Made by a program: the position numbers and the translations under genes | Notes under the pieces: generated by a model | What the model saw: only the letters and a program-made list of their open reading frames with translations | Database searches by the model: none | What the model was told of the DNA's origin: nothing | Shown: one piece after another, positions 12,156 to 56,720 of the stretch | Numbering within the stretch: the first letter of the stretch is position 1 | Layout of the letters: every line of letters starts with the position of its first letter | NCBI GenBank assembly: GCA_021229015.1 | Contig: CM037781.1 | Location: 69,710,173 to 69,774,172 of the forward strand | DNA length: 64,000 nt | Direction of reading: 5' to 3' | DNA from: Solen grandis | Taxonomy: Eukaryota > Mollusca > Bivalvia > Adapedonta > Solenidae

Positions 12156-13905
12156 CTCGTTTAATTTTATTACTAGCGAAACAGCTTTTTTATGTTTACC
12201 CTTCATTTAGCGTCCAACTCTAGTATGCGGTTACATTATCTTGTTTCCTTGACTGGCCGCTTAAAATGTTTTAACTGTATATTATATTTTAAATATATAA
12301 TATTTCAACGAAGGAAAACATTTAACGGTGATGTTGAATATGACAAAGCACAGATAAACAAGGATATTTTACTACCTGGACAAATTCCTTTTTTGACAAC
12401 TCCTTTTTTCTTTCTTTGTTGGTACTGCGATATAGACAGTTTGTAAAGTAGGAACACCTAATCTTAAAAAATATATGTCCCCGTCAATTATCTATGAGCA
12501 TCAGAATGCTATTAATTACATTAACAATCTTAGATTTATGTGATTGCGTCACATATTTGACCAACCATATCAAATATTAACAATCAATATATATTTACAC
12601 GTATTTATTATGTATTTTACACTACTATATTATTATAATACAGTCTATATTGTGCAAAAAGGTATAATTATCTTTTTTATTTATTTTAAAAATATCGTAA
12701 TGTATATCTATAACAGTGTTTTAAAGATACTCTACTATCGTGTTCAACATATACTCGTATTACATGCGTGGATCCAGATGGGGTCCCAAGGGTCGCCCCT
12801 CCCCCATCCTAGAAAATTCTAATTAGAAGAGGAATGAAAATACCCCCACTCCCTGTAAAATCTGCTGGGGCAAAAAAGGAAATAATAGAGAAACATTCCC
12901 CACATGGTCAATTTTAGGATTTAAGAGTTGGCCTGGTCTTGGAATTTTCATAGTTTGCCAGCATATCCCTGTCAGACCCCTTCCCCAACCCCCGAGGTAA
13001 ATGGCTGAATCCTGCGCATGTATGCTGTTATGTTTTCTTGCAATCTCTTTGTTTCTCTGCATTTCGTGATCGCTCTGTTTTACTTTTCCATTAACCACTT
13101 TTAATCTCTCTCTCTCTCTATTTCTCTCTCTCTCTCTCTTGCACTAGTGAAGCGAGAGAAGAAAGTTTTCGAGTATTTAATTACTCGATAATGGTTACGG
13201 TAGCCGATTATTATTATTATATCATTATTATGTTAGTGTTGGTTGATGTTGGTGTTGATGGTGGTTTTGATGTTATGGCTGTTGTTGTTTGTTATGCTTT
13301 ATACACAAGTATTTTGCATAAATATATCTGTATAATAATTATGTAAATGAATTTATCACCAAGTTAATTAAAACAACACACACATTCATATATATATTTA
13401 TCAATTTATTCCACAATAAATAACAATAGCACGCTTATATTAATAAATTAAGACTGGTTGTATAGTCTTCAAAAGTAACACATTACTGGTGATTATGAGA
13501 GCCAAAATTCAGGGGATAGGATTGCCAAAATAGAAGTTTTCCCCTCCAATGTTCTGGCATGTTATCCGGTAGATTTCGTTTCATTTGAGGGTGTGGTGGT
13601 CTCTTGCGTCATTTGCTAATTCACTGAAATAAACAGAAATGTTGAAGGTTGGAAAATGTTACAATAATCAGACAATAACAATGACGTACTAGAGATATCC
13701 TTTGATGTTTCATATAAAAGTTGACAATACTTGAGCTGTATAGCTCAAATGACTGAATGTGAATAAAATTATATATGAAAAATTGAATAGTGGATAAAGT
13801 GGGGTCAAAGCGATTGTATATGTTCGTATAACATTTATTTATCACAAAAGGTACAAGTGTTCTTTCCAAAACCATGAAATAGCGGAAGTAGTTACCTGAG
13901 CGAGT

Positions 13906-14437
13906 TTAACCGGAAGCTGAAGCGTTGACAATGGTGACGGTGGGCGTGGTGGAGGTGGTGCTGGTGTTCCGGAACAAGAACAAGATCACGAACAGGAAAC
14001 CGATCAGCATCAGGACTGGAATGAAATACGTGATAATGTGAAAGTCAAACAGCATTTTATGAACATGGAAACATTTTCAAGGTTTTATATATTTTTGTCG
14101 ATAAGAGCTTATGCCACAATATCAATCCGCATTTAGGGCTCGAGCTGTATCTTGTTTTGGATATTACTGGTATGATGGCTGATTTTGACTAACTTTTGTG
14201 AATTAATTAAAATCAATTGGTTATAAAAAATCCATAACTTCCATTCGAATCCTAAATATGGCTTACATCTTGAAAATATTCTAAGAAGAAATAGATTCGA
14301 TTTCATATGAATATGTCAAAACTGAACTTACATGAACTGTCCCCGAAGCCACCGCTAGATGGCGCAAATCCGAACTGAGCAGTAGCCAGCCCGAGGACAC
14401 AGGCGATGGCGAGAGCGGCGATCAGGAAGGATTTCAT
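13906..14437 (-). CDS. 71-aa secreted/membrane microprotein, copy A
   Basis: Spliced gene, minus strand. Coding exons are 14332-14437 (ATG at 14435-14437) and 13906-14015 (TAA at 13906-13908). The intron between is phase 1, with GTAAGT at its donor and a CATTCCAG acceptor. A 5' UTR exon (14851 to about 14877) splices to CACCAAG just before the ATG. A second intron after the stop (donor at 13894-13895) leads to a 3' UTR exon ending at an AATAAA (13405-13410). The protein has a signal peptide at 1-20 (MKSFLIAALAIACVLGLATA), a linker starting QFGF with Gly/Ser, a 15-residue hydrophobic segment at 36-50, and then a Thr/Ser-rich tail with NTS (52) and NAS (66). There is one Cys, inside the signal peptide. 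Family unknown to me. Conservation across five copies argues it is real. Confidence 0.85.
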
Positions 14438-14897
14438 CTTGGTGCTGGGCAAGAGAGAAAAATATGTTTATAAAAATGTACATGTATTTCTTTAAGCGAT
14501 ATTACTTGATTCTTATATCATAATTAGAAGATTTCCTCAATAAAGAATGTAATATAGTATAATCAGTGGAAATAAATTTATTCCAATGTTTTATTAAAGA
14601 AATCTTGTTATCAAAAACGAATGATATGGAAGATTAAAATATGAAAACGTTTTAACATTTAGTGCGCGACATATTTTTTTTTTATCATTTTACTTGGAGC
14701 AAGAAATAAATAATAATTCACCAGCTAAAATTATGGTTATTTACATGAAAACCATCAGTCTTTATGAGTGTATTTTTTTTTTATTAGCATTTTTTATTCT
14801 AAAAGTTATCCTTTAATTTAATTTTTGTGTGTTGAAGTGTTTAAGTCTACCTTAATTGCTGGTGATCAAATGACGATGAGAACATTAAGTTGGTCAC

Positions 14898-15000
14898 GGT
14901 TTATATACCCTCCCATTCGAGCCGGAAGCGTCTGTCCAGCTATGTCCGGAAATGATCTCTGTAAATGCAGGTAACATTATGTCTCCGATATTACCTAGAG
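14898..15000 (-). promoter_or_regulatory. Core and proximal promoter of copy A
   Basis: TATATAAAC on the minus strand (14899-14907) sits about 25-30 nt upstream of the inferred first exon. Further upstream are two CCGGAA boxes (14922-14927, 14946-14951; TTCCGG on the coding strand, ETS-like core) and a block, AACATTATGTCTC followed by ATTACCTAGA (14973-14999), shared with the other copies. Confidence 0.7.
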
Positions 15001-15269
15001 CTAGTTCGTGACTTGGGTGAAAATGCATAGAATCTAGATGAAGTTGTATTGTAATCAATGTTCAGATATAGCCCACAACTATAAGATATATATAAAGTAA
15101 AATGTATAATAAAGAAAATATTCGGCGTTCATGGGAAATGTACAACAGTACATGTAAGATGGGAGTCGGGGAGTGAATTTGTTGTAAATAAACGTACTGT
15201 CGCCTTCTTTCGGTCATACGTGGACGGTGACATAGACTATGATATACTCTAAATATACTTTTCGATTGT

Positions 15270-16145
15270 ACCGATATTTAGATAGTCATATGAATATTAC
15301 ATCGCTTTGTGATATATTTTTTAGTTTGAGCAAAGCGACGTAATGTCAAAAAGCCCCCAAAACACATGTATATACATGTAGCAAAATCTAAAATGTGCAA
15401 CTTCTATATTTTCAGTGATAACTATCACTATATGATTTAATTCAACCTTATAAATCCAAATCCGCTATTTTTCCTCTTTTTGTTTGTTTGTTTTTTATCT
15501 ATATATTTATTTATTTATCATTTTTTATTCATTTATTTTTTTTACAAAATAACGCCGAAATGCACTCATTTAAGCTTATTGATTAAATGTTGACATCCTC
15601 TTTACTCAAGAAAACACCGTTACTATGGGTAAATAAATTTTACGAATAGGAACAGAAGATTCGTTTAACAAAGAATTATCGCGTTATACCGTGTTTTTAA
15701 TTTTTTGATATGGGAATATTTCAATACAATAACTTCATATAGACATTCTGTCAATATGACTAGGACAAAGTCAATAGTCACAGGAATCGATCTTCCCCCA
15801 TTTTAGGTAGTTGTTTTACTTTAATGGACAAATCAGCTATTGATGGAAATGTGTCAGATATTTGAATCAATTATCCGTGGTAATTATTCATTGGATTTTG
15901 GTTTAAAACACATTGTCATCGATTTTTTCGATGTATAATAATTGTTTTTTTCTTCTACTCATGGTACTTTTAGATGCATTCTTTTCGTATCAGTGTGTTT
16001 ATAACAGCTTAAACATTCAGCCCTGAATTCACCGCGGCACGTGATATTTGCTTTGTGAGCTTTTCGATAGGACTTCGCTTTGCCCCAACTAAAAAATGTA
16101 TCACAAAGCGACGAAATATTCAATGGACTAATATTTAGAACGTTC
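15270..16145. repeat. Inverted-repeat pair in unit 1
   Basis: The arm at about 15270-15350, containing TCGCTTTGTGATATATTTTT and GAGCAAAGCGAC, is matched in inverse orientation at about 16070-16145. The arms are roughly 80% alike and some 800 bp apart, like the ends of a decayed DNA transposon. The same pair occurs in unit 2 (about 20845-21715). The interior has no recognised coding sequence; a 70-codon frame at 15959-16171 overlaps one arm and is not convincing. Confidence 0.6.
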
Positions 16146-16429
16146 GAATCGAAACAGGTCTCATTGTACATCTAGGAGTCCTCGTGGATAAAACAACTAT
16201 AATATATATCTATCAAAGAAACAGTTACGGTAACTTTGTGAAAAAGTCTGTATAAGAAGTATATATTTCAGTTTAAAGTCATCTCGACAAACAACAGTTA
16301 TTGTAGGTAATAATTTCCCCAAAGTGTAGGCATTTCCTACCAATGAAAATCGTTCAAATATTCATTTGGTCTTACCTTGCGTCTTCGTCCGTAAATATAT
16401 ATCAAAAGTAAGGCTAGACATCTACGCCG

Positions 16430-16482
<53 letters not shown>

Positions 16483-17176
16483 TCTCCCCAATTACGTATT
16501 TGCCAAATATGTGCCTATATTCATATAATGCCACGCATAAAATCCTTAAAGGATCATAAGATCACATTCCTTTTACCAGTTGTTTCTCAACAATAAAAAT
16601 GGAGGGTGGACCATACGTATCACGCAGTGAATCGAAATTATTTTAAAATAGACGATATACATACGTAGATGTATATAATCATTGAAATCACATGGGCGGG
16701 TTAAATAAATGAATTCATATGCAATCACTCCTTTTTATATTTTTATACGTTTTTTCTGATATGTTTATACTCATTACATGCTGTAAAAAGGTGATAGTTT
16801 TCTACATTATCTCTTTCATTACATAATGTTAAGTATTTATAAATTCTTTCTTTTATATTTTGACTTTTACACCCTGTTTCAACTCAATTTATAAAACTAG
16901 CTATAGTTTTTCAAAACTATGATAATGAGGAAGATAGTTTTATAATTTATAGGTAGTCATGTAGGAAAATGAATATGCGTTTGTATAAGCTATTTGCTTA
17001 TTCACTTTGAGTAAAGTTTTAACATTCTTTTTTCTTTATTTAAAAAGATAAAACACAATTTGTAATGTCTTCATAAACTAATTTGCTTAAACAATAAACA
17101 GCTACATCTGTGTGACTGACTTTAACCGCCCTATATACTTAGATACACACAGACACAAACAACTATACATGTACAG

Positions 17177-17717
17177 TTGAACCTGTATTAGTGGTCACCT
17201 GTATTAGCGTCCACCTGTATTAGCGTTCACCTGTATTAGCGGTCACCTGTATTAGTAGTCATCTGTATTAGCGTCCACCTGTATTAGCGTCCAACTGTAT
17301 TAGTGGTCACCTGTATTAGCGTCCACCTATATTAGCGGTCCGCTGAATCAATGGTCACCTGTATTAGCGTCCACCTGTATTAGCGTCCACCTGTATTAAT
17401 GGTCACCTGTATTAGCGTCCACCTGTATTAGCGTCCATCTGTATTAGCGGTCACCTGTATTAGCGTCCACCTGTATTAGCGGTCACCTGTATTAGTGTTC
17501 ACCTGTTTTAGCGGTCACCTGTATTAGCGTTCACTTGTATAAACAGTCACCTGTATTAGCGGTCACCTGTATAAGCGGTCACCTTTATTAGCGTTCTCCA
17601 GTAATAGCGTTCACTTGTATTAGCGTTCACCTGTATTAGCGTTCAACTATATTAGAAGTCTCCTGTATTAGCGGTCACCTGTATTAGCGTTCACCTGTAT
17701 TTTTGTAGTCAACCTGC
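17177..17717. repeat. 16-bp minisatellite, unit 2
   Basis: Same GTATTAGCGGTCACCT-type array as in unit 1, expanded by roughly 160 bp. Confidence 0.9.
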
Positions 17718-19478
17718 ATATCTCGTTTAATTTTATTACTAGCGAAACAGCTTTTTTATGTTTACCCTTCATTTAGCGTCCAACTCTAGTATGCGGTTAC
17801 ATTATCTTGTTTCCTTGACTGGCCGCTTAAAATGTTTTAACTGTATATTATATTTTAAATATATAATATTTCAACGAAGGAAAACATTTAACGGTGATGT
17901 TGAATATGACAAAGCACAGATAAACAAGGATATTTTACTACCTGGACAAATTCCTTTTTTGACAACTCCTTTTTTCTTTCTTTGTTGGTACTGCGATATA
18001 GACAGTTTGTAAAGTAGGAACACCTAATCTTAAAAAATATATGTCCCCGTCAATTATCTATGAGCATCAGAATGCTATTAATTACATTAACAATCTTAGA
18101 TTTATGTGATTGCGTCACATATTTGACCAACCATATCAAATATTAACAATCAATATATATTTACACGTATTTATTATGTATTTTACACTACTATATTGTT
18201 ATAATACAGTCTATATTGTGCAAAAAGGTATAATTATCTTTTTTATTTATTTTAAAAATATCGTAATGTATATCTATAACAGTGTTTTAAAGATACTCTA
18301 CTATCGTGTTCAACATATACTCGTATTACATGCGTGGATCCAGATGGGGTCCCGAGGGTCGCCCCTCCCCCATCCTAGAAAATTCTAATTAGAAAAGGAA
18401 TGAAAATACCCCACTCCCTGTAAAATCTGCTGGGGCAAAAAAGGAAATAATAGAGAAACATTCCCCACATGGTCAATTTTAGGATTTAAGAGTTGGCCTG
18501 GTCTTGGAATTTTCAAAGTTTGCCAGCATATCCCTGTCAGACCCCTTCCCCAACCCCCGAGGTAAATGGCTGAATCCTGCGCATGTATGCTGTTATGTTT
18601 TCTTGCAATCTCTTTGTTTCTCTGCATTTCGTGATCGCTCTGTTTTACTTTTCCATTAACCACTTTTAATCTCTCTCTCTCTCTCTCTATTTCTCTCTCT
18701 CTCTTTCTCTCTTGCACTAGTGAAGCGAGAGAAGAAAGTTTTCGAGTATTTGATTACTCGATAATGGTTACGGTAGCCGATTATTATTATTATATCATTA
18801 TTATGTTAGTGTTGGTTGATGTTGGTGTTGATGGTGGTTTTGATGTTATGGCTGTTGTTGTTTGTTATGCTTTATACACCAGTATTTTGCATAAATATAT
18901 CTGTATAATAATTATGTAAATGAATTTATCACCAAGTTAATTAAAACAACACACACATTCATATATATATTTATCAATTTATTCCACAATAAATAACAAT
19001 AGCACGCTTATATTAATAAATTAAGACTGGTTGTATAGTCTTCAAAAGTAACACATTACTGGTGATTATGAGAGCCAAAATTCAGGGGATAGGATTGCCA
19101 AAATAGAAGTTTTCCCCTCCAATGTTCTGGCATGTTATCCGGTAGATTTCGTTTCATTTGAGGGTGTGGTGGTCTCTTGCGTCATTTGCTAATTCACTGA
19201 AATAAACAGAAATGTTGAAGGTTGGAAAATGTTACAATAATCAGACAATAACAATGACGTACTAGAGATATCCTTTGATGTTTCATATAAAAGTTGACAA
19301 TACTTGAGCTGTATAGCTCAAATGACTGAATGTGAATAAAATTATATATGAAAAATTGAATAGTGGATAAAGTGGGGTCAAAGCGATTGTATATGTTCGT
19401 ATAACATTTATTTATCACAAAAGGTACAAGTGTTCTTTCCAAAACCATGAAATAGCGGAAGTAGTTACCTGAGCGAGT

Positions 19479-20010
19479 TTAACCGGAAGCTGAAGCGTTG
19501 ACAATGGTGACGGTGGGCGTGGTGGAGGTGGTGCTGGTGTTCCGGAACAAGAACAAGATCACGAACAGGAAACCGATCAGCATCAGGACTGGAATGAAAT
19601 ACGTGATAATGTGAAAGTCAAACAGCATTTTATGAACATGGAAACATTTTCAAGGTTTTATATATTTTTGTCGATAAGAGCTTATGCCACAATATCAATC
19701 CGCATTTAGGGCTCGAGCTGTATCTTGTTTTGGATATTACTGGTATGATGGCTGATTTTGACTAACTTTTGTGAATTAATTAAAATCAATTGGTTATAAA
19801 AAATCCATAACTTCCATTCGAATCCTAAATATGGCTTACATCTTGAAAATATTCTAAGAAGAAATAGATTCGATTTCATATGAATATGTCAAAACTGAAC
19901 TTACATGAACTGTCCCCGAAGCCACCGCTAGATGGCGCAAATCCGAACTGAGCAGTAGCCAGCCCGAGGACACAGGCGATGGCGAGAGCGGCGATCAGGA
20001 AGGATTTCAT
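19479..20010 (-). CDS. 71-aa secreted/membrane microprotein, copy B
   Basis: Same structure as copy A, offset by 5573: coding exons 19905-20010 and 19479-19588, first exon from 20423 to about 20449, and a 3' UTR exon ending its acceptor side at 19196 with AATAAA at 18978-18983. The encoded protein is identical to copy A (Phe at 24, Ser at 34). Because the whole 5.5 kb unit is nearly identical to unit 1, this copy by itself adds no evidence of selection and may be a recent duplication or an uncollapsed haplotype. Confidence 0.85.
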
Positions 20011-20469
20011 CTTGGTGCTGGGCAAGAGAGAAAAATATGTTTATAAAAATGTACATGTATTTCTTTAAGCGATATTACTTGATTCTTATATCATAATTAG
20101 AAGATTTCCTCAATAAAGAATGTAATATAGTATAATCAGTGGAAATAAATTTATTCCAATGTTTTATTAAAGAAATCTTGTTATCAAAAACGAATGATAT
20201 GGAAGATTAAAATATGAAAACGTTTTAACATTTAGTGCGCGACATATTTTTTTTTTATCATTTTACTTGGAGCAAGAAATAAATAATAATTCACCAGCTA
20301 AAATTATGGTTATTTACATGAAAACCATCAGTCTTTATGAGTGTATTTTTTTTTATTAGCATTTTTTATTCTAAAAGTTATCCTTTAATTTAATTTTTGT
20401 GTGTTGAAGTGTTTAAGTCTACCTTAATTGCTGGTGATCAAATGACGATGAGAACATTAAGTTGGTCAC

Positions 20470-20570
20470 GGTTTATATACCCTCCCATTCGAGCCGGAAG
20501 CGTCTGTCCAGCTATGTCCGGAAATGATCTCTGTAAATGCAGGTAACATTATGTCTCCGATATTACCTAG
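20470..20570 (-). promoter_or_regulatory. Core and proximal promoter of copy B
   Basis: TATATAAAC at 20471-20479 (minus strand), CCGGAA boxes at 20494-20499 and 20518-20523, and the AACATTATGTCTC block at about 20544-20570. As in copy A. Confidence 0.7.
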
Positions 20571-22688
20571 AGCTAGTTCGTGACTTGGGTGAAAATGCAT
20601 AGAATCTAGATGAAGTTGTATTGTAATCAATGTTCAGATATAGCCCACAACTATAAGATATATATAAAGTAAAATGTATAATAAAGAAAATATTCGGCGT
20701 TCATGGGAAATGTACAACAGTACATGTAAGATGGGAGTCGGGGAGTGAATATTGTTGTAAATAAACGTACTGTCGCCTTCTTTCGGTCATACGTGGACGG
20801 TGACATAGACTATGATATACTCTAAATATACTTTTCGATTGTACCGATATTTAGATAGTCATATGAATATTACATCGCTTTGTGATATATTTTTTAGTTT
20901 GAGCAAAGCGACGTAATGTCAAAAAGCCCCCAAAACACATGTATATACATGTAGCAAAATCTAAAATGTGCAACTTCTATATTTTCAGTGATAACTATCA
21001 CTATATGATTTAATTCAACCTTATAAATCCAAATCCGCTATTTTTCCTCTTTTTGTTTGTTTGTTTTTTATCTATATATTTATTTATTTATCATTTTTTA
21101 TTCATTTATTTTTTTTACAAAATAACGCCGAAATGCACTCATTTAAGCTTATTGATTAAATGTTGACATCCTCTTTACTCAAGAAAACACCGTTACTATG
21201 GGTAAATAAATTTTACGAATAGGAACAGAAGATTCGTTTAACAAAGAATTATCGCGTTATACCGTGTTTTTAATTTTTTGATATGGGAATATTTCAATAC
21301 AATAACTTCATATAGACATTCTGTCAATATGACTAGGACAAAGTCAATAGTCACAGGAATCGATCTTCCCCCATTTTAGGTAGTTGTTTTACTTTAATGG
21401 ACAAATCAGCTATTGATGGAAATGTGTCAGATATTTGAATCAATTATCCGTGGTAATTATTCATTGGATTTTGGTTTAAAACACATTGTCATCGATTTTT
21501 TCGATGTATAATAATTGTTTTTTTCTTCTACTCATGGTACTTTTAGATGCATTCTTTTCGTATCAGTGTGTTTATAACAGCTTAAACATTCAGCCCTGAA
21601 TTCACCGCGGCACGTGCTATTTGCTTTGTGAGCTTTTCGATAGGACTTCGCTTTGCCCCAACTAAAAAATGTATCACAAAGCGACGAAATATTCAATGGA
21701 CTAATATTTAGAACGTTCGAATCGAAACAGGTCTCATTGTACATCTAGGAGTCCTCGTGGATAAAACAACTATAATATATATCTATCAAAGAAACAGTTA
21801 CGGTAACTTTGTGAAAAAGTCTGTATAAGAAGTATATATTTCAGTTTAAAGTCATCTCGACAAACAACAGTTATTGTAGGTAATAATTTCCCCCAAAGTG
21901 TAGGCATTTCCTACCAATGAAAATCCTTCAAATATTCATTTGGTCTTACCTTGCGTCTTCGTCCTTGAATATATATCAAAAGTAAGGCTAGACATCTACG
22001 CCGAAAAAAAAAATATATATATATCTTCTCCCCAATTACGTATTTGCTAAATATGTGCCTATATTCATATAATGCCACGCATAAAATCCTTAAAGGATCA
22101 TAAGATCACATTCCATTTACCAGTTGTTTCTCAACAATAAAAATGGAGGATGGACCATACATATCACGCAGTGAATCGAAATTATTTTAAAATAGATGAG
22201 ATACATACGTAGATGTACATAGTCATTGAAATCACATGGACAGGTTAAATAAATGAATTCATATGCTGTCACTCCTTTTTACACGTTTTTTTTCCTGATA
22301 TGTTTATATTCAGGACATGCTGTAATAAGATGATAGTTTTCTACATTATCTATTTCATTACATAATGTTAAGTATTTATAAATCCTTTCTTTTCTATTTT
22401 GACTGTAACGCCCTGTTTCAGCTCAATTTATAAAACTAGCTATAGTTATTCAAAACCATGATAATTTCGAAGATAGTTTTATAACTTATATGTAGGCAAA
22501 TACGAAAATGAATATGCGTTTGTATAAGCTATTTGCTCACGCACATTGAGTAAAGTTTTAACATTTCTTTTTCATCTTATTTAAAAGATAAAACACAATT
22601 TGTATAGTCATTTCGGCATAAAAAATGCTTTTAAAAACAATGAATAGCTACATATGTGAGACTGACTTTTACCGCCCTATATACTTGG

Positions 22689-23036
22689 ATACACACACAT
22701 ATACACACACAGACACATACACAGACACACACACACAGATACACAGACACACACACAGACACATACACAGACACATACACAGACAACACATACACAGACA
22801 CACACATACACAGACACACACACAGACACATACACAGAAAACACACAGACACACACACAGATTTACACACACAGACACACACACAGATTTACACACACAG
22901 ATACACACACATACACACACAGACACATACACAGACACACACAGAGATACATACACAGATACACACACAGACACACACAACACACACAGATTTACACACA
23001 AATACACACACACATACACACCACAGAGATACACAC

Positions 23037-23067
<31 letters not shown>

Positions 23068-23712: not shown

Positions 23713-25044
23713 AGTATGCTGATCGTTACATTAGCTATTTTACATTTGATGTTGTTTCGTCACATATTTTACCAAGCATATCAAATATTAAAAATCAATA
23801 TATTTATATTTTCACGTATTTATTATATATTTTATACTACTCTATTATTTAAATAAATCCATATTGTGAAATAAAAACGTATATACGTGTTTTCTTATCT
23901 TAAAGATATCGTAATACATGTCTACTACAAGATACTCTGCTATCGTGTTCAATGTTCAACATATACTCGTATGACATGTAGGATCCAGAGGGGTCCCGGG
24001 GATCTGCCCCCCCCCCCCAACCCCCCTCCTCCTAGAAAATTCAAATTAAACGAGGAATGAGAATACCCCACCCCCTGTCAGAATTTCAGACTTTTCAGAG
24101 ATGGCTTGGCATTGTATTTTTAACAGTTTGCCAACATGTCCCTCTCACACCTCTCCCCAAACCCCCTGAGATAAATGGCTGAATCCGCGCATGTATACTT
24201 TAATTATTTCTTCTGTATTTCGTGATTGCTCTGTTATACTTTTCCCTTAACCACTTTACTCTCTCTCTCTCTCTCTCTCTCTCTTGCACTAGTGAAGCGA
24301 GGGGAGAAAGTTTTCGAGTATTTGATAAGTTGGTACAGGTTACCGTAACCGATATTTATTACTATGTTGTTGTTGTTGGTTGTTGTTGGTGTTGATGTTA
24401 TGACTGTTGTTGTTCCTTATGCTTTTGTGCACCAGTGTTTAGCATAAATATATGAATTTATCTCCATGTTAATTCAAACAACACACATATACATAAAAAA
24501 AACACATCTTTGTTGTAATTATATATTTTTTATTCATTTTTTACACAATAAATAACAATAGCACGCTTATATATAATAAATTAAGACTGGTTGTGTAGTC
24601 TTCAAAAGTAACACATTCCTGATGGTTATGACAGCCAAATCAAGGTCAGTGGATTGGATTGCCAAAATAGAAGTATTCCCCTCCAACGTTCTGGCATGTT
24701 ATCCGGTAGATTTCGTTTCATTTGAGGGTGTGGTGGTCTTTTGCGTCATTTGCTAATTCACTGAAATAAACAGAAATATTGAAAGTTGGAAAATGTTACA
24801 ATTATCAAAGACAATAAACAATGACGTACTAGAGATATATATTTAATGTTTCATTTAAAAGTTAACTATACTTGGGTTATATAGCTCAAATGACTGAATG
24901 TAAATAAATGATATGTGAAAAACTGAATAGTGGATACAGTGGAGCTAAAGCGAGTGTATATGTTCGTGTATCATTTATTTATCACAAAAGGTACAATTGT
25001 TTTTTCCAAAACCATGAAATACCGAAGTAGTTACCTGATCGAGT

Positions 25045-25552
25045 TTAACCGGAAGCTGAGGCGTTGACAATGGTGACGGTGGGCGTGGTGGAGGTGGTGC
25101 TGGTGTTCCGGAACAGGAACAAGATCACGAACAGGAAACCAATCAGCATCAGGACTGGAAGAAAACACGTGATAATGTGAAAAATATGCAGCATTTTATG
25201 TATATGGAAATATTTTCAAGGTTTTATGCCAAAAGGTAAATCCGCATTTAGGGCTCGAGCTGCATCTCGTTTTAGAGATTACTGGTATGATGGCTGATTT
25301 TGACTTACTTTTGTGAATGAATTAAAATCATTTGGTTATAAACATCTATCACTTTCTTTTGAGTCTTATACATGACTTACATCTTGAAAATATTCTAAGA
25401 AGAAATAGACTGCGATTTCATATGAATATGCCAAAATTGAACTTACATGATCCGTCCCCGAAGCCACCGCTAGATGGCGCATATCCGAACTGAGCAGTAG
25501 CCAGCCCGAGAACACAGGCGATGGCGAGAGCGGCGATCAGGAAGGATTTCAT
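25045..25552 (-). CDS. 71-aa secreted/membrane microprotein, copy C
   Basis: Coding exons 25447-25552 and 25045-25154; first exon from 25845 to about 25872. The 3' UTR exon has its acceptor side at 24760 and AATAAA at 24529-24534. All splice sites are kept. The protein differs from copies A and B only at residue 24 (Tyr) and residue 34 (Gly), a combination shared with copy D. Unspliced reading through exon 2 into the intron gives a 60-codon frame (25418-25600) that shows the signal peptide well but is not the real product. Confidence 0.85.
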
Positions 25553-25889
25553 CTTGGTACTGGGCAAGAGAGAAAAATAGCTTATGAAAATGTAGATCAT
25601 AAAGCGAATAAGCTAATTTCTTGTATCACTATTATAAGGTTTCCTCTACAAATAATACAATAAATGGAAATCAATTCGGTCCCAGTATTTTTGTTAAAGA
25701 AATATTATGATCAATAATACTATAAAACTGAAATTAAGTATCCATATGCCATGTATTTCACTTGAAGCAACAGATATTCACATTACTTTACTGAGAAACA
25801 GATATTTCCTTTTTTCTATTGCTACATGAAGTGTTTAAGCTTACCTTGATTGCTGGTGATCAAATGACGATGAGGACATTAAGTTGATT

Positions 25890-25996
25890 ATCATATATAT
25901 ATACCCACCCGCACAATCCGGAAACGTCTGCACAAATATGACCGGAAGTGATCACTGTAAAAAGCAGGTAACATTATGTCTCTTATTTTACCTAGA
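25890..25996 (-). promoter_or_regulatory. Core and proximal promoter of copy C
   Basis: A TATATATAT run at 25893-25903, CCGGAA boxes at 25918-25923 and 25942-25947, and AACATTATGTCTC followed by TTACCTAGA at 25970-25996. The first box keeps the shared extension CCGGAARCGTCTG. Confidence 0.65.
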
Positions 25997-28434: not shown

Positions 28435-28439
28435 TTTAT

Positions 28440-43487: not shown

Positions 43488-44571
43488 TTGTGTGTAAGGG
43501 AAGAGGGAAATTAATTCATTACTTGACATTATTTTATGTTATGGTTTCCGTTTATTATTATTAGAAATAGTATTGTTGTTGTTGTTTTTATTTATATCAT
43601 ATTGTAGCTGTTTTGGCTGTTGTTGGTGTTTCTTTTGCTTTAGAACACCGGTAAGTGTTTAACATAAATATGCGTATACTAATCATGTTACAGATGTAAT
43701 TGCATTGTTCATTTAAAAACAGCACACACATATGTAACGCAAGAATATTTTTTTGGTCATTTTTATTTGTTTCTTCCACGGTAAAAACAATAACATGTAC
43801 ATACATAATAAATTAACAATGGCTATGTGGTTTCCGATGGCTACCGATTTCGGGATATTTATGCCAGACACAATAAATTCATAGGATTTGATTGCCAAAA
43901 TGATACTATTTCTCTCCAAGGATCTTGTTTTTTGAGTATGTTGAAAGTCTGTCTCTGGAAGAGGAAGTCTCTTTTGACTGTTTTTATGGCGGTGTATTGT
44001 CTCGTCAGCTAAGCAACTGAAATATATTTACAGAAAAATTGAAAAATGTCACAAAAAATAAAAATAATAAAATATGAGGTACCAGAGATATCGATAAAAT
44101 GTTTCATTCAAAACTTAATAATAAAAGCATGCGTCAGAAAATTCGCATAACTGTACATGATCCATAAATCTTAAATTACACGTACTGAAAATAAGCAAAT
44201 CAGATATGAAATAATATGATTTATTTATTATTATTTTTTTTTTATCTAAAGGGTTAAATCAGAATCAACTTTTACGTATTAGTTATCGTATTTCAAAATT
44301 TATGGAACTTATCGTAAGCGACGCGAGGGCTACATGCAAAACATGACGTAGGCACTCTCCGCCGCCAGCAAGCTCCGCCTATTCAGTCCAAAGCATACAC
44401 TCATGTTTCTCCATATCAAGACTTCACGGATCATTTTATGTAGTATATTTTTCAAATTCTGAACGAAATGCAAGCATTTCATTGGACGATTAAGTCGGAC
44501 GAACTGTAAAGTTTTTTATTACTCACTAATTTCCAAAACAAGAATTACCGGAAGTAGTTACCTGCGCGAGT

Positions 44572-45796
44572 TTAACCGGAAGCTGAGGCGTTGACAATGG
44601 TGACGGTGGGCGTGGTGGAGGTGGTACTGGTGTTTCGGAACAAGAACAAGATCACGAACAGGAAACCGATCAGCATCAGGACTGAAAGAAAACAGGGAAA
44701 TGGTGGAGAATATGCGGCATTATACATTACATCATAGTCTGAAGTCGACGTACTCCTCGCACACGCTAAAACACTTTAAACTCATGTGAACATTCTACCA
44801 TGTAAAGGTGCCGACACGCTCCTCGTCTAGGATAGCGTAGCGATTTATTTTACGGGCACATTAAGCGTAACGGATTATTTTGCGGGCACAATGCTCACGT
44901 GACTATAGGTAAACCGGTGTAGCAGTTAATATTATTTTCATTATTTGTACGACATTTTAATATACTCGTTTACCCATTTCATCATTATGAATGTTATTTA
45001 AATGAAATAATACGAAACTGACATGAAATACTCGAATCTAAAATCAAAAGTGAAAAAAAAAATATTGCGACAATCCACTTGCCGAATAAACTTGTAATGG
45101 CAGTAGTTAACTATACTGAACATCGTCGCATACCCACGGCTAACTTATTCCGTTTCACTATATGATATACAGATGATCTATCAATTGGCCGTGGGTATTC
45201 GACGATGGGGAAGTAAATGCTGCAGAGATTTTCGGCAAGCAAAACGTCGTATAACTGCAGCCGATGCCTATAATATCGACCATTGCAAGTACGCCTTATG
45301 AAAGAAATACACATTGTTGTAAAAGTCATGTACGGTAAACTTATGAATATATTGCTGTAAACAGCTGTATAAAACAACCTCTACTTATTGACTAAAAAAA
45401 CATGATGACACCAGTGACATTACTTAATTTGACACACCTCAAAATGACAAAATACAGGCGTAAAAGTCAACGGCCCCTGGATGATATCGATAGGCTCTGA
45501 TTTACATAGAAACATTTTCAAGGTATTCTAATACCGTAGGGTGCCTGGAAAGCCCGATGAAAACCAAACTTTGATGGTACTGTACGTGACCAGGAATCGA
45601 ACCCTCGGCACATTGATGAGAAGCGAAACGCGCTACCACAACGCTATCATTAAATTCCATCTTCAAAGACAACGCGAAAACTGAACTTACATGATCCGTC
45701 GCCGAAGCCACCGCTAGATGGCGCATATCCGAACTGTGCAGTAGCCAGTCCGAGAACACAGGCGATGGCGAGAGCGGCGATCAGGAAGGATTTCAT
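44572..45796 (-). CDS. 71-aa secreted/membrane microprotein, copy D
   Basis: Coding exons 45691-45796 and 44572-44681; first exon from 46139 to about 46165; 3' UTR exon from 44016 down to an AATAAA at 43762-43767. The protein matches copy C (Tyr24, Gly34) and differs from A, B and E at those two residues only. The intron between the coding exons is about 1 kb, longer than in A to C, and carries a SINE and an 87-bp hairpin. It lies about 20 kb from copy C, outside the tandem triplication, with the GPCR gene between. Confidence 0.85.
45121..45207. repeat. 87-bp hairpin in intron 2 of copy D
   Basis: Arms CATCGTCGCATACCCACGGC (45121-45140) and its reverse complement with one mismatch (45188-45207), separated by 47 bp. 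Not seen at the equivalent position in the other copies, so probably an insertion. Confidence 0.75.
45535..45660 (-). mobile_element. tRNA-derived SINE in intron 2 of copy D
   Basis: On the minus strand the head has TAGCGTTGTGGTAGCGCGTT (box A) and GGGTTCGATTCCTGGTCACG (box B). The body contains GGTTTTCATCGGGCTTTCC, similar to GGGTTTTCTCCGGTTTCC in the SINE at 58003-58235, so the two look like one family. Confidence 0.65.
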
Positions 45797-46186
45797 CTTG
45801 GTGCTGGGCAAGAGAGAAAAAAATGTTTATAAATATGTATTTCCTGAAGCAATTTTACTAATCTTATATTTCAATTATAAGATTTTCTCGATCAAAAATG
45901 TAATAAATCAATGAAATGAAAATCAATTTGAATCCAGTATTTCATTAAAGAGACAGTTAGATCTATTTGTAATTTAATTATTTGTATTTGTTGGAAAAAG
46001 TAGTTGTTTTTTTTGTTGTTGTTTTTTGTTGTTTTTTTTTTGTTTTTTCAAACTAAAAATTACACGATTAAAGTCCTTATTATCAGCATTTACTTATTTT
46101 TACTCTTTTTTGCAATATTGTGAAGTGTGTAAGCCTACCTTGATTGTTGGTGATCAAATGACGATGTAAACATAAAGTTGGTCACC

Positions 46187-46275
46187 GTATATATACCCAT
46201 CCGCACTAGCCGGAAACGTCTGCTGATATATGTCCGGAAGTGATCGCATGTAATATTATGTCTCTGGTATTACCC
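46187..46275 (-). promoter_or_regulatory. Core and proximal promoter of copy D
   Basis: GTATATATAC at 46187-46196, CCGGAA boxes at 46210-46215 and 46234-46239, and a distal block with ATATTATGTCTC (about 46252-46265). The region 46415-46449 upstream is a (GT)n tract. Confidence 0.65.
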
Positions 46276-46414: not shown

Positions 46415-46449
<35 letters not shown>

Positions 46450-46594
46450 GTTGATATGGAATATATCTCATCGAGAAGTTTGAAAATGTTGAAATTTTAT
46501 CACCTCGAGATGAGAAACGTTCCATACTTTCTAAAAAAATCATTTTATGTTATAAAAACTGATGCTAAAACAATTGAACTATATCAAAGGCAAT

Positions 46595-46660
46595 TAGTTT
46601 GTTTGTCTGTTTGGGTTAAGCGTCATACCGACAGTATTTCAGTCATTTTGAGAATTAAGT
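46595..46660 (-). mobile_element. SINE 3' tail fragment
   Basis: TTTGTTTGTCTGTTTGG followed by AAGCGTCATACCGACAGTAT is a degraded copy of the 3' end of the SINE at 32733-33036. Confidence 0.5.
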
Positions 46661-46956
46661 AATTAAGTTGATATCAAAATAAATGGTCATCTCTGCTGTG
46701 TCGGTAGGTGTAAAAGCGTCAAAAAATGATTTTTGCTTGTACAGTATGAGATTGTGTTATAGTAACCCTTCAGCGGCCCCGTCTAGTTTTTTGGTCAGAT
46801 ATTCAAAAATAAATGCAGTATGTCGCTTCAAAATAGGAAAATTTGCCCTAATCGCTAAAATTTACTTTTTTATTTTGTTGACATCATCTTCAAACATAAC
46901 TTCATTTTGCGAAAAGTAAAAAATTTGCATACGGACGGTCGTCCAATTCGCCAAGT

Positions 46957-46960
<4 letters not shown>

Positions 46961-47007
<47 letters not shown>
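46961..47007. repeat. (TA)n microsatellite
   Basis: Uninterrupted TA run of 47 bp. The frames across it are not genes. Confidence 0.95.
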
Positions 47008-47009
<2 letters not shown>

Positions 47010-47012
<3 letters not shown>

Positions 47013-48540: not shown

Positions 48541-48544
48541 CATA

Positions 48545-50270: not shown

Positions 50271-50279
50271 TATTAGGCC

Positions 50280-50900
50280 TTCTTTTAGCACTGATCGATT
50301 AAAGTAAATAATCGTATTTGTCTTTTTTCTTATTTTAACAGCGGCGATATAATATTAAAGGTATCCATTAAATAAAATAAACGTATCTTTGTCATTCTTG
50401 TATTCTTTAAATAAAATATAAATCCAAAAAAAAAAACAGCCGCTGACAAAATCAATTATGAAAGCACAAACCTCAACGATGATATTTATTTCGTTCACGT
50501 ACATGTACACATATAGCACAATCAGAGAACATAAATATCAGCTAAAAAAAGTAACATTTAGCAAATTACTTTAATAACAATAATTAATAAATGCCTGTGC
50601 CAAATTAACAATGTGTAAATTGTTAATTGGTTCGACCGATAAGTATGAAAAACATATAGCATTTTAAACCTGGGGCCGGTAATTAAGTCCGAGAGTTCCA
50701 GCCACCAGTGTTCGACTCATCCAAGGTCGATTTATAAAGAGAAAAGAACAGTTTTGCCTAAGTTCGAGTAAAGTATTTATAGTGTTCCAGTTTTCAGTGT
50801 TCGAGTCACCGATTCCATTCTTCTTATGTCCATATGACATAAATATTTGATTTTCAAAAAAAAAAAAAGCATCGCACTGCGAACAGAGTCTTTAAAGACA
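50280..50900. other. No gene seen
   Basis: AT-rich sequence; around 50690-50830 'GTTCCAG' and 'GTGTTCGA' phrases repeat weakly. Confidence 0.35.
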
Positions 50901-51446
50901 ACATATTTCACGTGAGATTGTCACCCACTGACGCCACAATAGGCTACATAAGAATAAAATCAAGTGAGATAATGATGAAATGATATTACGTAGTGTTGCC
51001 CTCTGACGTCACAATATGATATGTTAAAAAAAAACACAATAAAACACCAAAGTGAGTTAGAGTTTGCCCGCTATTTCTACCCAATCAGTGAGCCCGAAAT
51101 TTCAAATTCCTGGTCGATTTAATTTGTTAAGAGTTTGAGATTTTGCGAGACTTGTCTACTTAATTGAGATTTAACTGTTAAGAGTTAACGTCGAACTGCG
51201 CATGTCATTATTTCAAATAATGATCCGCCCTATGCACGTGATAGATATATATGGCAGTGTTTACTACACCGATCCCTACACACGAGAAATGCACACTCAT
51301 ATGTAAACATTTAGTAAAGTTGCTGATGTACACATTGAATGAGAAGCTTCGGAAATTTATATTTTCGTAAAGTGATGATTACCAGCTCAATCCAAACGGA
51401 CTCCTAAGGAAAGAATAAGATTCTGAAATAAATATTAAAATACAAG

Positions 51447-51592
51447 CATAGTTTAATTGTTTGTTTGTTTATTAGGTTTAACGTCCCACCGACATGTGGC
51501 ATGATACCAAACCTAGTCACATTATCATGACACCGGGCCAACCAGTCCTGGAACTACCCTGATTATGCTGAGCGCCAAGCAAGACTTTTTTT
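51447..51592 (-). mobile_element. 5'-truncated SINE with 9-bp target duplication
   Basis: AAATACAAG lies on both sides (51438-51446, 51593-51601). The body matches the 3' part of the SINE at 32733-33036 (AACGTCCCACCGACA, ACCGGGCCAACCAGTC, GAGCGCCAAGCAAG). The tRNA head and the middle portion are missing. Confidence 0.8.
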
Positions 51593-52035
51593 AAATACAA
51601 GAATTGAAATTGATATAACGTTCATGAACAACTTACAGATAATGTATTGACTAGTTTGAGTTGGTATTTCCAGGGCATTCCTAGCTTTAATATCTTCCGC
51701 TGACATCGGCTTTTCTAAACGATTATTATCTACATATTTCGTTCTTTCCATAACGTCAATCAGTTGCTGTGTACTGATGTCTTAACTTGTAAAAAAATAA
51801 AATAAATAAATAAAACTGTCATCACTCAAATTAAATTTCCGTGCTTCTTGATTGAAATCTGAAAAAAGAAATGAGCCGACGGTAAAAAAAAAAACGCGCG
51901 AAACCTGTGTGTTACATTTATATTTGGAAAGCACGTGCACGTGTGTGAATACTTAAACAACACACTGACGTAATATATTTGGCGCCATCTCCTAATATAG
52001 CAGTTTGACGCAAAAATAAGGCGGGGCAAACTCTA

Positions 52036-52150
52036 AGTTAGTCAGTGTTTATTAAGAGAGAATTTGACAGTTAAGAAGCCAGAACGAGCGTAAAGAAGCC
52101 CTCGTTCTGGCTTCTTAACTGTTAAATTCTCACTTAAAAACAATAACTAT
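52036..52150. repeat. Long imperfect hairpin
   Basis: The core arms GACAGTTAAGAAGCCAGAAC and its near-perfect inverse surround a 12-bp loop at about 52089-52100. Weaker pairing extends to about 52036 and 52150. MITE-like. Confidence 0.8.
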
Positions 52151-52309
52151 AACATATGATGACAATACGTATTTTTAACCTCTGACGTCACTACAGAATA
52201 TATGGTAAAAAAAAAATCAAGTGAAATATGATTTAGCATAAAACGCAGTGTTGCCCTCTGACGTCACAGTAGGTTATAAAGTAAGAAAACAAATTATTAT
52301 AGTGATACT

Positions 52310-53155
52310 TATCCATAGTTGTAGAGAATAACATACGTTGATGACCACAGAGTATGGAAAGGGGCTTGTATTCAATGAATAATAAAGTTGGCTCCTACAA
52401 ACTATCTTGTTGGATATACATTTAGATCTATATGATAATTTTCCAGTTATACCATGAAATATTCCGAGTTAAGATTTGACCTGCAATCACCTCTCTCTCC
52501 GTGATGAGATGTTAAAACATGAACTATTTGTAAGTGTTTGTATGAAAATATATACCCGTTCTAGCCTATGGGCCATGGAAAAAATGTTATCTTGTAAAAT
52601 GTGATCCTACATGACTCTCTCGATGCCAGTGAGACCATGAAATCCCACGTGATTTACAAACATTCTGTTCCTTGTTAAATGTCACATATTCAGTAATTAT
52701 CTGGCAACGGGATATGTAGTTGAAGGCAACGGTGAGCTAATTATTTATACATGGTATTTTCCGTCCATTAGCGACAAAATGTCACAAAAGTGTAAGTTAT
52801 GTGGTTGCATAGTCCACATTTATTGATTTTACAAAAATGTTGGACTACACGTTATAGTTCACGGTGACTATGAACAATGTACTAGCACCTGATTGGACGA
52901 GAGGAAAATGCCATGTGCTAATGACAGCTAAGTTTAAAACCATTCAATCAAAATATTTATCAGTTCATATACTTATATATCTTTTTTATATTTTTTTGAG
53001 AATATATTAACCAAAACATGTATATGAAGAACTGTTGGGTTTAAGTTTTTTTATAGCCCGGTAATGCGAGACGAAAATATATATATAAACAAATGATAAT
53101 TTTCAGGTCATTGTTGTGATAATTAACAAGAGAGACAAAGAAGTTGTTCTCATTT
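52310..53155. other. No gene seen
   Basis: Downstream of gene copy E's 3' UTR exon. No coding or repeat structure recognised. Confidence 0.4.
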
Positions 53156-54309
53156 TTCTTTATTTTTAATAATAAATAACAATAGGGTATACATATATAA
53201 TAAATCATTATCTATACATATCACATTGATTGATATTGTCGTCGTGTAATCCTGAAAAGCTACAAATTTCGTATAGTTTTGAAAGTCGCTTTAATTAAAA
53301 GGATTGAATTGCAAAAAAAAAGTAGTCTCCTCTTCTGTTGTTTCTGGTTGGTGTGTGTTGAAGACCTTTCTGTGGCTAGAATAATCTCATCTGATGTCTG
53401 GGTGTAATTTGTACAATCTCCTAGATTACTGAAATAGACAGAAATATAGAAAAATGGAAGCTGTCAGAAAAATCAAATACTTTAAGAGGGCATGTACAAG
53501 AACGTAAACAAAAGACACAAAGTAATAAAAATAAAATCTTATATTGAAATGTTAATGTTAATCATTCACATGGAACACTTCGACCAATAATCAGCCTCAA
53601 ATAAAAAAGAAAACGTACTGAAACTAACCAAATTATGAAATTTAAAAAATAAGTGTGTTTGCAAATATGTTGTAAATATTATAAAGAGCTTTATAATTAT
53701 TATTATTATTATTATTATTATCTGAATCAACGTATACTTTGTGAAACTTGAGAAGTTCATACAAGAAATTAGAGTTATTGTTAACACTCGAAATCCATTT
53801 TTTTTACACATGTATTTTGAAAATTAAAATTATACATCCTTTTTTCTGTAAGGATTCTTTCACACATTCGTGTCTCTCTGACATCCAAGCATAAAAACCC
53901 GGAAATATCACTGACAATAGTATCACATAGTTTGGTCGTGTATCCCTGATTTTTTTTTTCGGCCGTTAGGCCGCTTATTTTCACCCTGACTTCCTGTGAA
54001 ACACACAGTAATGAAGAGGAATAAAATTAGGCTTTTCATTGGTTATTATATACCTTGCTAAAATCCCATTGGTCACTGTAAAATTAGTAAAAAGAAAAGA
54101 CAGGAGTTGCGGAAACGAGTTCTTTAGCTCTCCGTTTGTTATAAAAGTTGAAGTTTTCTTCCCCTGCAAACGATTTGTTCCGAAAAGTAAGACACTGAAC
54201 CTTTTTTAAGGTAAACTGAAAGAGTAGAATGCTAAAAAATAGGAAACAAATAGATTTCGGAATTGATTGTTCGACCCTGACATATCCTATATTCAACAAG
54301 AGTGCAAGT

Positions 54310-55211
54310 GCTGCCACAATATACGCCGCCACAAAATATAAAGACCAAGAGTGTCCTTTTAATTATTGCTTTTAACATTTCTGTAAGCATAAGATCATAA
54401 TGAAGTCTGTGAGACCAATTAATTTAGCTGAAAGAGCAGTATATTCGCGAATATACTTTTCTCAAAGTGAGGCAATCACTAAAGATGATGAAAAGACAGG
54501 GGCCTGAGATTGTGGCTGCCTTGGTAGTAGGTTCGATCCCTGCAGGGGCAGCTGGGTGTTTTCTTGAGCAAAACAGTTTATCCTCACTTTGAAAAGATCA
54601 GGTCAGAAACATACAAGGAATGGCGTTCACAAGGCTAAAATATCAATCAGCTAAAGAGACTAAGTTTCAAGGGACAAAAATCTTGCAAAAATTAATGAAC
54701 CGGAAAAACGCCCCTTCATGCACATCTACCCATTATAGTAATAACATTGATCAAGTCTTGAAAAGATTCATTCAGAAATGTTGGAGGAGTTGCGTTCACA
54801 AGGCTGCAATATCAATCAGCTACAGAGACTAAGTTTCAAGGGACAAAAATCTTGCAACAATTAATGAACCGGAAAATCGCCACTTCATGCACATCTACCC
54901 ATTATAGTAATGACATTGATCAAGTTTTGAAAAGATTCATTCAGAAATGTAGGAGGAGTTGCGTTCACACGGCTGCAATATCAATCAGCTACAGAGACTA
55001 AGTTTCAAGGGACACAAATCTTGTAAAAATCAATGAACCGGAAAATCGCCACTTCATGCACATCTACCCATTAAAATAATGACATTGACCAAGTTTTGAA
55101 AAGATTCATTCAGAAACAAAGGAGGAATTGAGTTCACAACAAATGTACGTACGGACGGACGGACAGACGGGGAAGATGACGCCAATATACGACCGCCTCC
55201 GGCGGCGTATA
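54310..55211. repeat. Dispersed repeat with three 169-bp tandem units, in intron 3 of copy E
   Basis: TATCAATCAGCTA landmarks at 54641, 54810 and 54979 define a 169-bp period. The block ends with GTACGTACGGACGGACGGAC and GGCGGCGTATAAC at 55211; near 54320 it has ATATACGCCGCC, an inverse match to that terminus, so the whole may be one inverted-ended element of about 0.9 kb. A tRNA-like box B (GGTTCGATCCCTGC) at about 54532 marks a SINE remnant inside. Confidence 0.7.
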
Positions 55212-55710
55212 ACAAAAACGTAACATCCGTAGCCAGCGAATCGAAGTCTAATGCGCAGATGTTTTAAGGCTATAAGTGTCTACCAAGATTGTACACACTA
55301 TTTGGATCCGTGGTATTTCAAAGAGCTGCACTGACACAAGTATTATACAACTATTAAACAAACAACAAAATCTATTACATATTAAACCATTTAGACACTA
55401 ATCGTCAAACTCGTTACCACGGCCGAGTATCCTTTTTAAAGATATTGCTTTTTTTTTTTTTTAAATATATATATATATAAGAATATACCTATGTACCCAT
55501 GAATTGTGATGTTTGCTTCCCCACCCACTTGCTCTCCTATATATGTATTAGTTAATGGATTTTATTGCAAGCCACGCGAAGCAACACTATTTCTAAGGCG
55601 TATCTAGTAACTATGTGACAGAGAAAATTTTCAGTGAAAATGGGCACCACACAATAATGACTAATTATGTGATTCTCTAGCGACAGTGGGAAGTAGTTAC
55701 CTGAGCTAGT

Positions 55711-56270
55711 TTAACCGGAAGCTGAGGCGTTGACAATGGTAACGGTGGGCGTGGTGGAGGTGGTGCTGGTGTTCCGGAACAGGAACAAGATCACGAACAG
55801 GAAACCGATCAGCATCAGGACTGGAATAGAACAGGAGTACGGTGAGTAACATTCAAATGATATAGAAATGTGATATATGATTCACATATGATAAGTTCGA
55901 TGTATCATTTGACAACTGTAGCCGATGAAACCATCAGCAGTAGCAGTTAGGATGAACGCAGCATTATCATTATCAGAAATGCCGCTTTGAACACCAGTTT
56001 TAATCTAATTTAGGCAATAAATTAAAATCAATTGTAAAGAAATATAATATCATATGACTTATATCGTTATGAACGAAAAAACAAGCAGTTTTATGTAGCT
56101 CTCTATATCTATTCATTTAACGCCATCTTTTTTCTTTCCACGACAACGCAAAAACTGAACTTACACGAACTGTCGCCGAAGCCACCGCTAGATGGCGCAA
56201 ATCCGAACTGAGCTGTAGCTAGCCCGAGGACACAGGCGATGGCGAGAGCGGCGATCAGAAAGGATTTCAT
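55711..56270 (-). CDS. 71-aa secreted/membrane microprotein, copy E
   Basis: Coding exons 56165-56270 and 55711-55820; first exon from 56555 to about 56582. After the stop, a donor at 55699-55700 leads to a 3' UTR exon whose acceptor side is at 53428, with AATAAA at 53159-53164. That last intron is about 2.27 kb against roughly 270 bp in copy A, owing to the repeat block at 54310-55211. The protein is identical to A and B (Phe24, Ser34) although introns and flanks no longer align. By eye the 216-nt CDS differs from copy A at eight positions, all synonymous. It is therefore an old copy under purifying selection, or one kept similar by gene conversion. Confidence 0.85.
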
Positions 56271-56602
56271 CTTGGTGCTGGACAAGAGAGAAAAATAGCT
56301 TATAATTATGTATCCCTTAAAGCGAAATAACTAGTATCTTAAAATCATAATTATATGTGCGATTTTACTCTCAAAACAGACATTAACCATTAGGATTATT
56401 CATTAAACATTTAGGGCAGGCATTAGTTCAAAATCATTTTATTTGAAGCTAGAAATTATAATATTTAGCAAAATAAAAATATGTCAATAAGTAACCGCGG
56501 TCATGATAAAAGAATCGCGTTAATATTTACTTGTTTTAAATAAGGATGCGTTACCTTGATTGCTGGTGATCAAATGACGATGAGAACAGTAAAATGACCC
56601 CC

Positions 56603-56720
56603 GTATTTATACCCACCCACACAAGACGGAAACGTCTGCTCAATGTCCGGAAGCGGTTAGGACTTATGATCACTGTTAACGCAAACATTAATAACATTAT
56701 GTCTTTGATATTACATAGAC
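56603..56720 (-). promoter_or_regulatory. Core and proximal promoter of copy E
   Basis: GTATAAATAC on the minus strand (56603-56612), a first box with one change (ACGGAAACGTCTG at 56626-56638), a second box CCGGAA at 56647-56652, and AACATTATGTCTTTGATATT at about 56693-56712. Spacing to the distal block is longer than in the other copies. Confidence 0.65.

Follow-up and report, generated by a model that had tools for sequence, protein, structure and literature searches.

A many-copy family of small spliced genes in the bivalve Solen grandis that may encode secretory-pathway glycopeptides

The stretch of Solen grandis DNA studied here, a window of 64,000 nucleotides at C5:69710173-69774172 of the 1.32-Gb genome (GenBank assembly GCA_021229015.1, contig CM037781.1), carries five minus-strand loci, copies A to E, that look like real protein-coding genes, both small and spliced. 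As an earlier note on this DNA had described, each consists of two coding exons of 106 nt and 110 nt (stop codon included), joined at phase 1 across a GT-AG intron and giving a product of 71 amino acids; this held for all five (Table 1). Copies A, B, and E encode one identical protein, from which C and D depart at F24Y and S34G, and copy B repeats both the coding part and the intron of A without change. When a two-exon search rule was applied over the whole window, exactly these five loci were returned and no others. Chance as the origin of such models was considered and rejected: the rule gave 15 models in the 156,430 real bases of 20 genomic loci and none when these loci were randomized five times each by a Markov-1 model (782,150 bases in all), a comparison that tests specificity only, as the rule was written from the family's own features. 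Rfam and tRNA scans of the window gave no matches.

Upstream of every copy lies a TATA block with a 5' untranslated region (UTR) exon that ends in AAG before an intron beginning GTA, so the promoter and leader exon that had been proposed are borne out at all five loci. The blocks score at least 103, whereas shuffled sequence reaches no more than 26. Two of the five blocks, those of copies C and E, themselves served as queries, and they score 117 against each other. Right behind the stop codon, all five copies have a donor, CAG followed by GTAACTAC. The earlier note placed a 3' UTR exon with AATAAA at all five loci, and this is clear for A, B, and C and partial for D, where the counterpart of the exon of A scores 62 against a shuffled maximum of 28. 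It fails for E, for which no counterpart of that exon was found (score of 25 versus 27 shuffled). The predicted four-exon structure can be traced in full for A to C, is likely for D, and is only partly shown for E.

Table 1. Features of the five gene copies and of the duplication carrying A and B (window coordinates; exons are given in reading order)
Feature	Position	Strand	Details
Copy A, coding part	13906..14437	-	exons 14437-14332 and 14015-13906; 316-nt intron; 71 aa
Copy B, coding part	19479..20010	-	exons 20010-19905 and 19588-19479; 316-nt intron
Copy C, coding part	25045..25552	-	exons 25552-25447 and 25154-25045; 292-nt intron
Copy D, coding part	44572..45796	-	exons 45796-45691 and 44681-44572; 1009-nt intron
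Copy E, coding part	55711..56270	-	exons 56270-56165 and 55820-55711; 344-nt intron
Copy A, TATA block and 5' UTR exon	14848..14951	-	exon end 14851, at AAG before GTA
Copy B, TATA block and 5' UTR exon	20420..20523	-	exon end 20423
Copy C, TATA block and 5' UTR exon	25841..25948	-	exon end 25845
Copy D, TATA block and 5' UTR exon	46136..46240	-	exon end 46139
Copy E, TATA block (GGGTATAAATA) and 5' UTR exon	56551..56653	-	exon end 56555
Copy A, 3' UTR exon	13385..13623	-	after TTTATTTCAG; start 13623; AATAAA at 13410; end approximate
Copy B, 3' UTR exon	18958..19196	-	start 19196; AATAAA at 18983; end approximate, by analogy with A
Copy C, 3' UTR exon	24518..24760	-	start 24760; AATAAA at 24534; end approximate
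Copy D, partial counterpart of the 3' UTR exon of A	43759..43925	-	AATAAA present; tentative
Tandem duplication carrying A and B	11780..22697		11780-17151 versus 17343-22697; 97% identity over ~5.4 kb

The description as a five-copy family is right for the window and too small for the genome, in which the 71-residue subfamily has 13 copies, 12 of them open and one frameshifted: the five of the window, five at C4:40.29-40.32 Mb, two at C4:36.79 Mb, and one at C4:34.22 Mb. Two paralogues of 76 residues lie at C5:43.39 Mb and C5:43.40 Mb. The phase-1 frame is intact across the joint in 12 of the 13 copies and in both paralogues. Likewise, the TATA block and 5' UTR exon are found in 12 of the 13, and both paralogues have a TATA box with a leader exon. 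The promoter blocks (14848-14951 and its counterparts) also contain (C/T)TTCCGG, which on the opposite strand reads CCGGAAG, an ETS-factor core, or a near form of it; the paralogues, too, have CTTCCGG ahead of the TATA box.

Rule-based reconstruction at the loci matched in genome searches with two relatives gave 18 further two-exon phase-1 genes, on contigs C5, C9, C10, C11, C12, C17, and C358. The superfamily thereby reaches at least 33 two-exon models (13 + 2 + 18) on eight contigs, and the longest coding exon among them is at most 145 bases. The copy counts are lower bounds, and the 18 further models come from a regular expression with phase 1 built into the rule. A seed made of the C12 models gave a few additional loci, and exon matches that yielded no model (e.g., at C13:63.07 Mb, C11:6.96, C3:68.2, C10:2.66, C7:57.0, and C1:94.4) were left out of the 33. 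All 18 further models have an AG within 20 nt upstream of the ATG (CAG in 17), as a 5' UTR intron would. A search for a TATA box and leader exon matched in six of them, three of which we judged convincing (C5:11.686 Mb, C17, and C358; AAG followed by GTAAG), and found none for the other 12, some of which have little upstream sequence.

Relatives also occur in other bivalves. A single-sequence protein search gave one match, the 70-residue Mactra antiquata protein ACF0H5_018191 (58% identity over its full length), and profile searches gave 4 and then 29 proteins at an E value of ≤10, 24 of them at ≤0.001. The organism is named for eight of the 29, and all eight are from bivalves: Mactra antiquata (ACF0H5_018191, ACF0H5_021985, ACF0H5_021730, and ACF0H5_021910), Dreissena polymorpha (DPMN_145671), Mya arenaria (LOC128223105 and MAR_014453), and Mercenaria mercenaria (LOC128558801). 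They are annotated as hypothetical or uncharacterized, save for the UniRef label "Protein-export membrane protein" on the Dreissena protein, which we take as a misnomer. The earlier note expected annotation based on open reading frames to miss these genes; gene prediction does not always do so and has captured relatives in four bivalves. The order of parts in the named relatives is that of the window product (in MAR_014453 up to the tail only), and the identity of ACF0H5_018191 spans all 71 residues, up to the terminal TVTIVN.SASG, whereas the named relatives otherwise have different tails and several have a longer Gly/Tyr linker. The window genes are one branch of this larger superfamily.

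The database relatives also bear on the exon joint. More than half of them (15/29; P0012, P0013, and P0017 to P0029) look like open frames that overrun the first coding exon. For 14 of these 15, judged by eye on the proteins, the Gly linker is followed by C/R/G/S and then K/E, as a translated phase-1 donor (N followed by GTAAG or GTGAG) would read. Three others, P0004, P0009, and P0016, tagged "merc," run straight through the joint. We take this tag to stand for the Marine Eukaryotic Reference Catalogue, presumably assembled from marine transcript reads; if so, the splice has been seen in nature at the level of the family. A passage of the AlphaFold paper (PMC8371605) names that catalogue.

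The architecture of the encoded proteins was compared in 21 representatives, comprising nine from Solen grandis, with 7 of the 18 further models used, and 12 from databases. All have a signal peptide of ~20 residues, a Gly/Tyr linker, ~15 hydrophobic residues, and a tail of 13 to 28 residues, and the earlier prediction of a signal peptide, linker, hydrophobic segment, and two N-x-S/T sequons in the window product is supported. The signal peptide of that product ends in A-T-A before Q and is probably cleaved after this A-x-A motif. In the five window copies and in the 18 further models, the phase-1 joint of the two coding exons falls where the Gly linker ends, and in the superfamily a hydrophobic segment of the type FLxLIGxLFxxLxLF follows directly. 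From residue 21 onward there is no cysteine in any of the 21 representatives, with at most three acidic and two basic residues per mature part; 16 of the 21 tails, counted by eye, have no charged residue or only one. An AlphaFold model of the Mactra protein P0001, made with 12 relatives in the alignment, has helices at residues 3 to 22 and 36 to 52, at low confidence (mean pLDDT, 61.8; pTM, 0.30).

The tails of these proteins carry an excess of N-glycosylation sequons. The 21 tails hold 44 sequons, compared with 22.1 ± 3.5 expected when each tail is shuffled (2,000 shuffles; maximum, 33), and every representative has at least one. An early sequon, within the first seven residues of the tail, is present in 19 of 21 (7.4 expected), and a late one, within the last ten residues, in 16 of 21 (8.3 expected). 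The late site is fixed at N and at S/T and variable in between (NAS, NGS, NFS, NIT, NLT, NST, NYT, and NAT). Database proteins cut at the joint or mispredicted past it (P0012 to P0014 and P0017 to P0029) were left out of the test, as was P0003, a near-copy of P0005.

The coding sequence has been preserved by selection. In all 24 comparisons of the 12 open copies with the two 76-residue paralogues, nonsynonymous divergence (dN) is 0.22 to 0.25 and synonymous divergence (dS) is 0.96 to 1.42, with dN/dS at 0.18 to 0.23 (Nei-Gojobori with Jukes-Cantor correction). The last 11 residues have the same protein sequence in copies and paralogues, despite differences at 5 of 9.7 synonymous sites. A dN/dS of ~0.2, together with synonymous change behind identical terminal residues, therefore shows purifying selection and constraint at the level of the protein.

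A different pattern is seen between certain copies of the subfamily. C4_2 and C4_5 are identical at 216 of 216 coding nucleotides, whereas their introns, of 315 and 1331 nt, do not align above background. Identity between the two is 0.55 to 0.85 within 20 nt of the exon edges and, at 21 to 60 nt from the edges, is 0.25 upstream, 0.28 and 0.23 in the intron, and 0.55 downstream of the stop codon. The coding exons of C4_3 and C4_4 likewise match at every one of their 216 nucleotides, and identity across 312 intron positions is 0.69. Codon constraint was rejected as the cause of the identical exons; synonymous sites are free to change (dS of ~1.2 to the 76-residue paralogues), and the pattern therefore points to recent conversion limited to exons between some copies, rather than to constraint. 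The kept introns favor DNA over complementary DNA (cDNA) as the template, and because they are kept, ordinary conversion between loci with homology only in the exons accounts for the pattern equally as well as cDNA. Exon-limited identity is not universal among pairs, as copies D and E have a dS of 0.23. The earlier description was incomplete in that it overlooked both these identical exons with unalignable introns and the excess of tail sequons, which is at odds with a simple one-pass membrane protein.

Like the earlier note, which recognized no family, we found none. For the 71-residue product, no Pfam family was returned at an E value of ≤0.1. Fifteen members matched 12 Pfam families at ≤1 (best, 0.024) and four NCBIfam families (best, 0.0069, AmaP, with three members), none of them suggestive of a family; bit scores were compared with the curated cutoffs for the first member only. 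A PDB sequence search returned six chains at an E value of ≤10, the best being Photosystem II protein W (0.035), which we take as a match between hydrophobic helices. In the open-access literature (titles and abstract openings, searched with peptide strings, locus names, and topics) nothing on the family was found, and a prior description elsewhere is possible.

Lineage-restricted families of small secretory proteins are already a known kind, and some likenesses to other systems can be drawn. Shematrins and other Gly/Tyr-rich shell matrix proteins share the signal peptide and the Gly/Tyr-rich stretch. By description, the clam family differs in that its Gly/Tyr part is short and is followed by a hydrophobic helix and a sequon-bearing tail. 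Pulmonary surfactant protein C is similarly small, with a very hydrophobic helix and a polar end, but it arises from a type II precursor and undergoes lipidation; this analogy implies no sequence relation. The Myticin-C genes of Mytilus (PMC3164099) likewise form a small mollusc gene family with large variation in intron size, and differ from the clam family, which is conserved and has a cysteine-free mature part.

With the structure of the genes, the number of their copies, purifying selection, identity restricted to exons, and the sequon excess all shown, we consider it probable that the window loci code for proteins of an extensive bivalve superfamily, one of small amphiphilic glycopeptides of the secretory pathway that are made in many copies; their expression, cleavage, glycosylation, location, topology, and role are inferred. 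The first coding exon would supply the signal peptide and the Gly/Tyr linker, and the second would supply the hydrophobic helix and the Ser/Thr/Asn-rich tail. Removal of the signal peptide would leave a cysteine-free, nearly uncharged peptide of ~50 residues, with a polar head, a greasy helix of ~15 residues, and an N-glycosylated tail. The excess of sequons points to a tail exposed in the lumen, as it could be if the short helix passed through the translocon or formed a hairpin. Such a peptide would most likely act as an amphiphile, either held within or upon membranes or, at epithelial surfaces, assembled in secreted material, and we propose that many copies with like exons are kept because the product is needed in quantity.

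Several observations weigh against this interpretation. With the signal peptide cleaved, a helix that spans the membrane would leave the tail in the cytosol, out of reach of N-glycosylation; either transfer continues past the helix, then, or the sequons have no use. The early sequon is missing in 2 of 21 representatives and the late one in 5 of 21, and since the 21 tails share ancestry, the sequon test lacks independence and is not a strict probability. Expression in Solen grandis is a prediction from sequence; no genomic copy of the exon joint was found in this genome with up to two mismatches allowed, and nothing links the family to any tissue. One copy, C4_6 (L012 1990-3910, C4:36.79 Mb), is thrown out of frame by one extra base near the start of its second coding exon; an open relative, C4_7, lies ~5 kb away on the opposite strand. 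Another, C4_5 (L011 6384-7927, C4:40.31 Mb), has no recognizable promoter block within 3 kb.

The main rival to a tail exposed on the luminal side is a plain, small type I membrane protein, with a cleaved signal peptide, a Gly/Tyr ectodomain outside, a spanning helix, and a cytosolic Ser/Thr tail serving for docking or phosphorylation. This is the simplest topology for a cleaved signal and a single hydrophobic helix, and the segment is indeed modeled as a helix, at low confidence. On this reading the sequons would be unusable and a by-product of a tail rich in Asn, Ser, and Thr. However, the sequons are twice as frequent as composition predicts, and the variation in the residue between (at the late site A, F, G, I, L, S, or Y), together with the exchange of S and T, fits selected glycosylation sites. 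Moreover, no positive cluster marks a cytosolic side, given that 16 of 21 tails have at most one charged residue. We regard the type I topology as possible, at odds well below even. Structural proteins of the shell, periostracum, byssus, or mucus matrix would be a special case of a secreted product, so that the two readings overlap in their likelihood. The Gly/Tyr-rich linkers of the superfamily and a copy number suggestive of a bulk product are in keeping with such a role, whereas the linker of the window subfamily is short and nonrepetitive, the weak Pfam matches include no matrix family save Chorion_3 (E value, 0.18), and a hydrophobic helix is not known to be a feature of shematrins. We regard a matrix role as possible, at similarly low odds.

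Small size, a signal peptide, a hydrophobic helix, and many tandem copies would also suit membrane-active peptides of innate immunity, expanded in arrays for host defense. Most antimicrobial peptides of the cationic or disulfide-rich type carry positive charge or cysteines, unlike the clam family, in which all 21 mature parts are cysteine-free with no more than two basic residues; purifying selection and like exons are found instead of diversification, and we consider this role unlikely. It is very improbable that the loci are unexpressed, whether as decayed copies or as a repeat with accidental open frames. The frameshift in 1 of 13 copies and the transposase remnants in the window could be read in that sense, whereas the 12 open copies, the dN/dS of ~0.2, the conserved splice sites and promoter block, and the relatives in other genera speak against it.

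Other features of the window include two arrays of a 16-bp repeat (ACCTGTATTAGCG(G/T)TC), at 11778-12137 (22.6 copies) and 17181-17701 (32.6 copies); each unit of the duplication carrying A and B has one such array inside or adjoining it, and the arrays could favor unequal exchange. The transposase remnants are of the hAT type, at 151-1985 on the minus strand, where the frame 151-876 matches Dimer_Tnp_hAT (E value, 6.7e-11) and the frame 1203-1985 matches DUF4371 weakly, below the family cutoff (0.00095). An intronless plus-strand frame of 392 residues at 35989-37167 matches Srw-type chemoreceptors of the G protein-coupled receptor class (Pfam PF10324; E value, 2.1e-33). A tandem repeat of ~165 bp occupies 60340-60956, and an open frame at 60625-60966 crosses part of it.

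The libraries searched contain no family name for the genes described here, which are known from no fewer than four named bivalve genera and account for at least 33 models in a single genome. The family is puzzling in two ways: its hydrophobic helix stands ahead of glycosylation sites that appear to have been selected, and some loci with introns that fail to align have identical coding exons. One explanation, which we offer tentatively and as a good deal less certain than the secretory nature of the peptides, is that these are secreted glyco-amphiphiles, whose helix would pass through the translocon or form a re-entrant hairpin, leaving head and tail outside and the tail N-glycosylated. Dozens of genes, some homogenized in their exons only, would then supply a surface-active or self-assembling coat in bulk. 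If this is true, the family would represent a new class of bivalve extracellular material.

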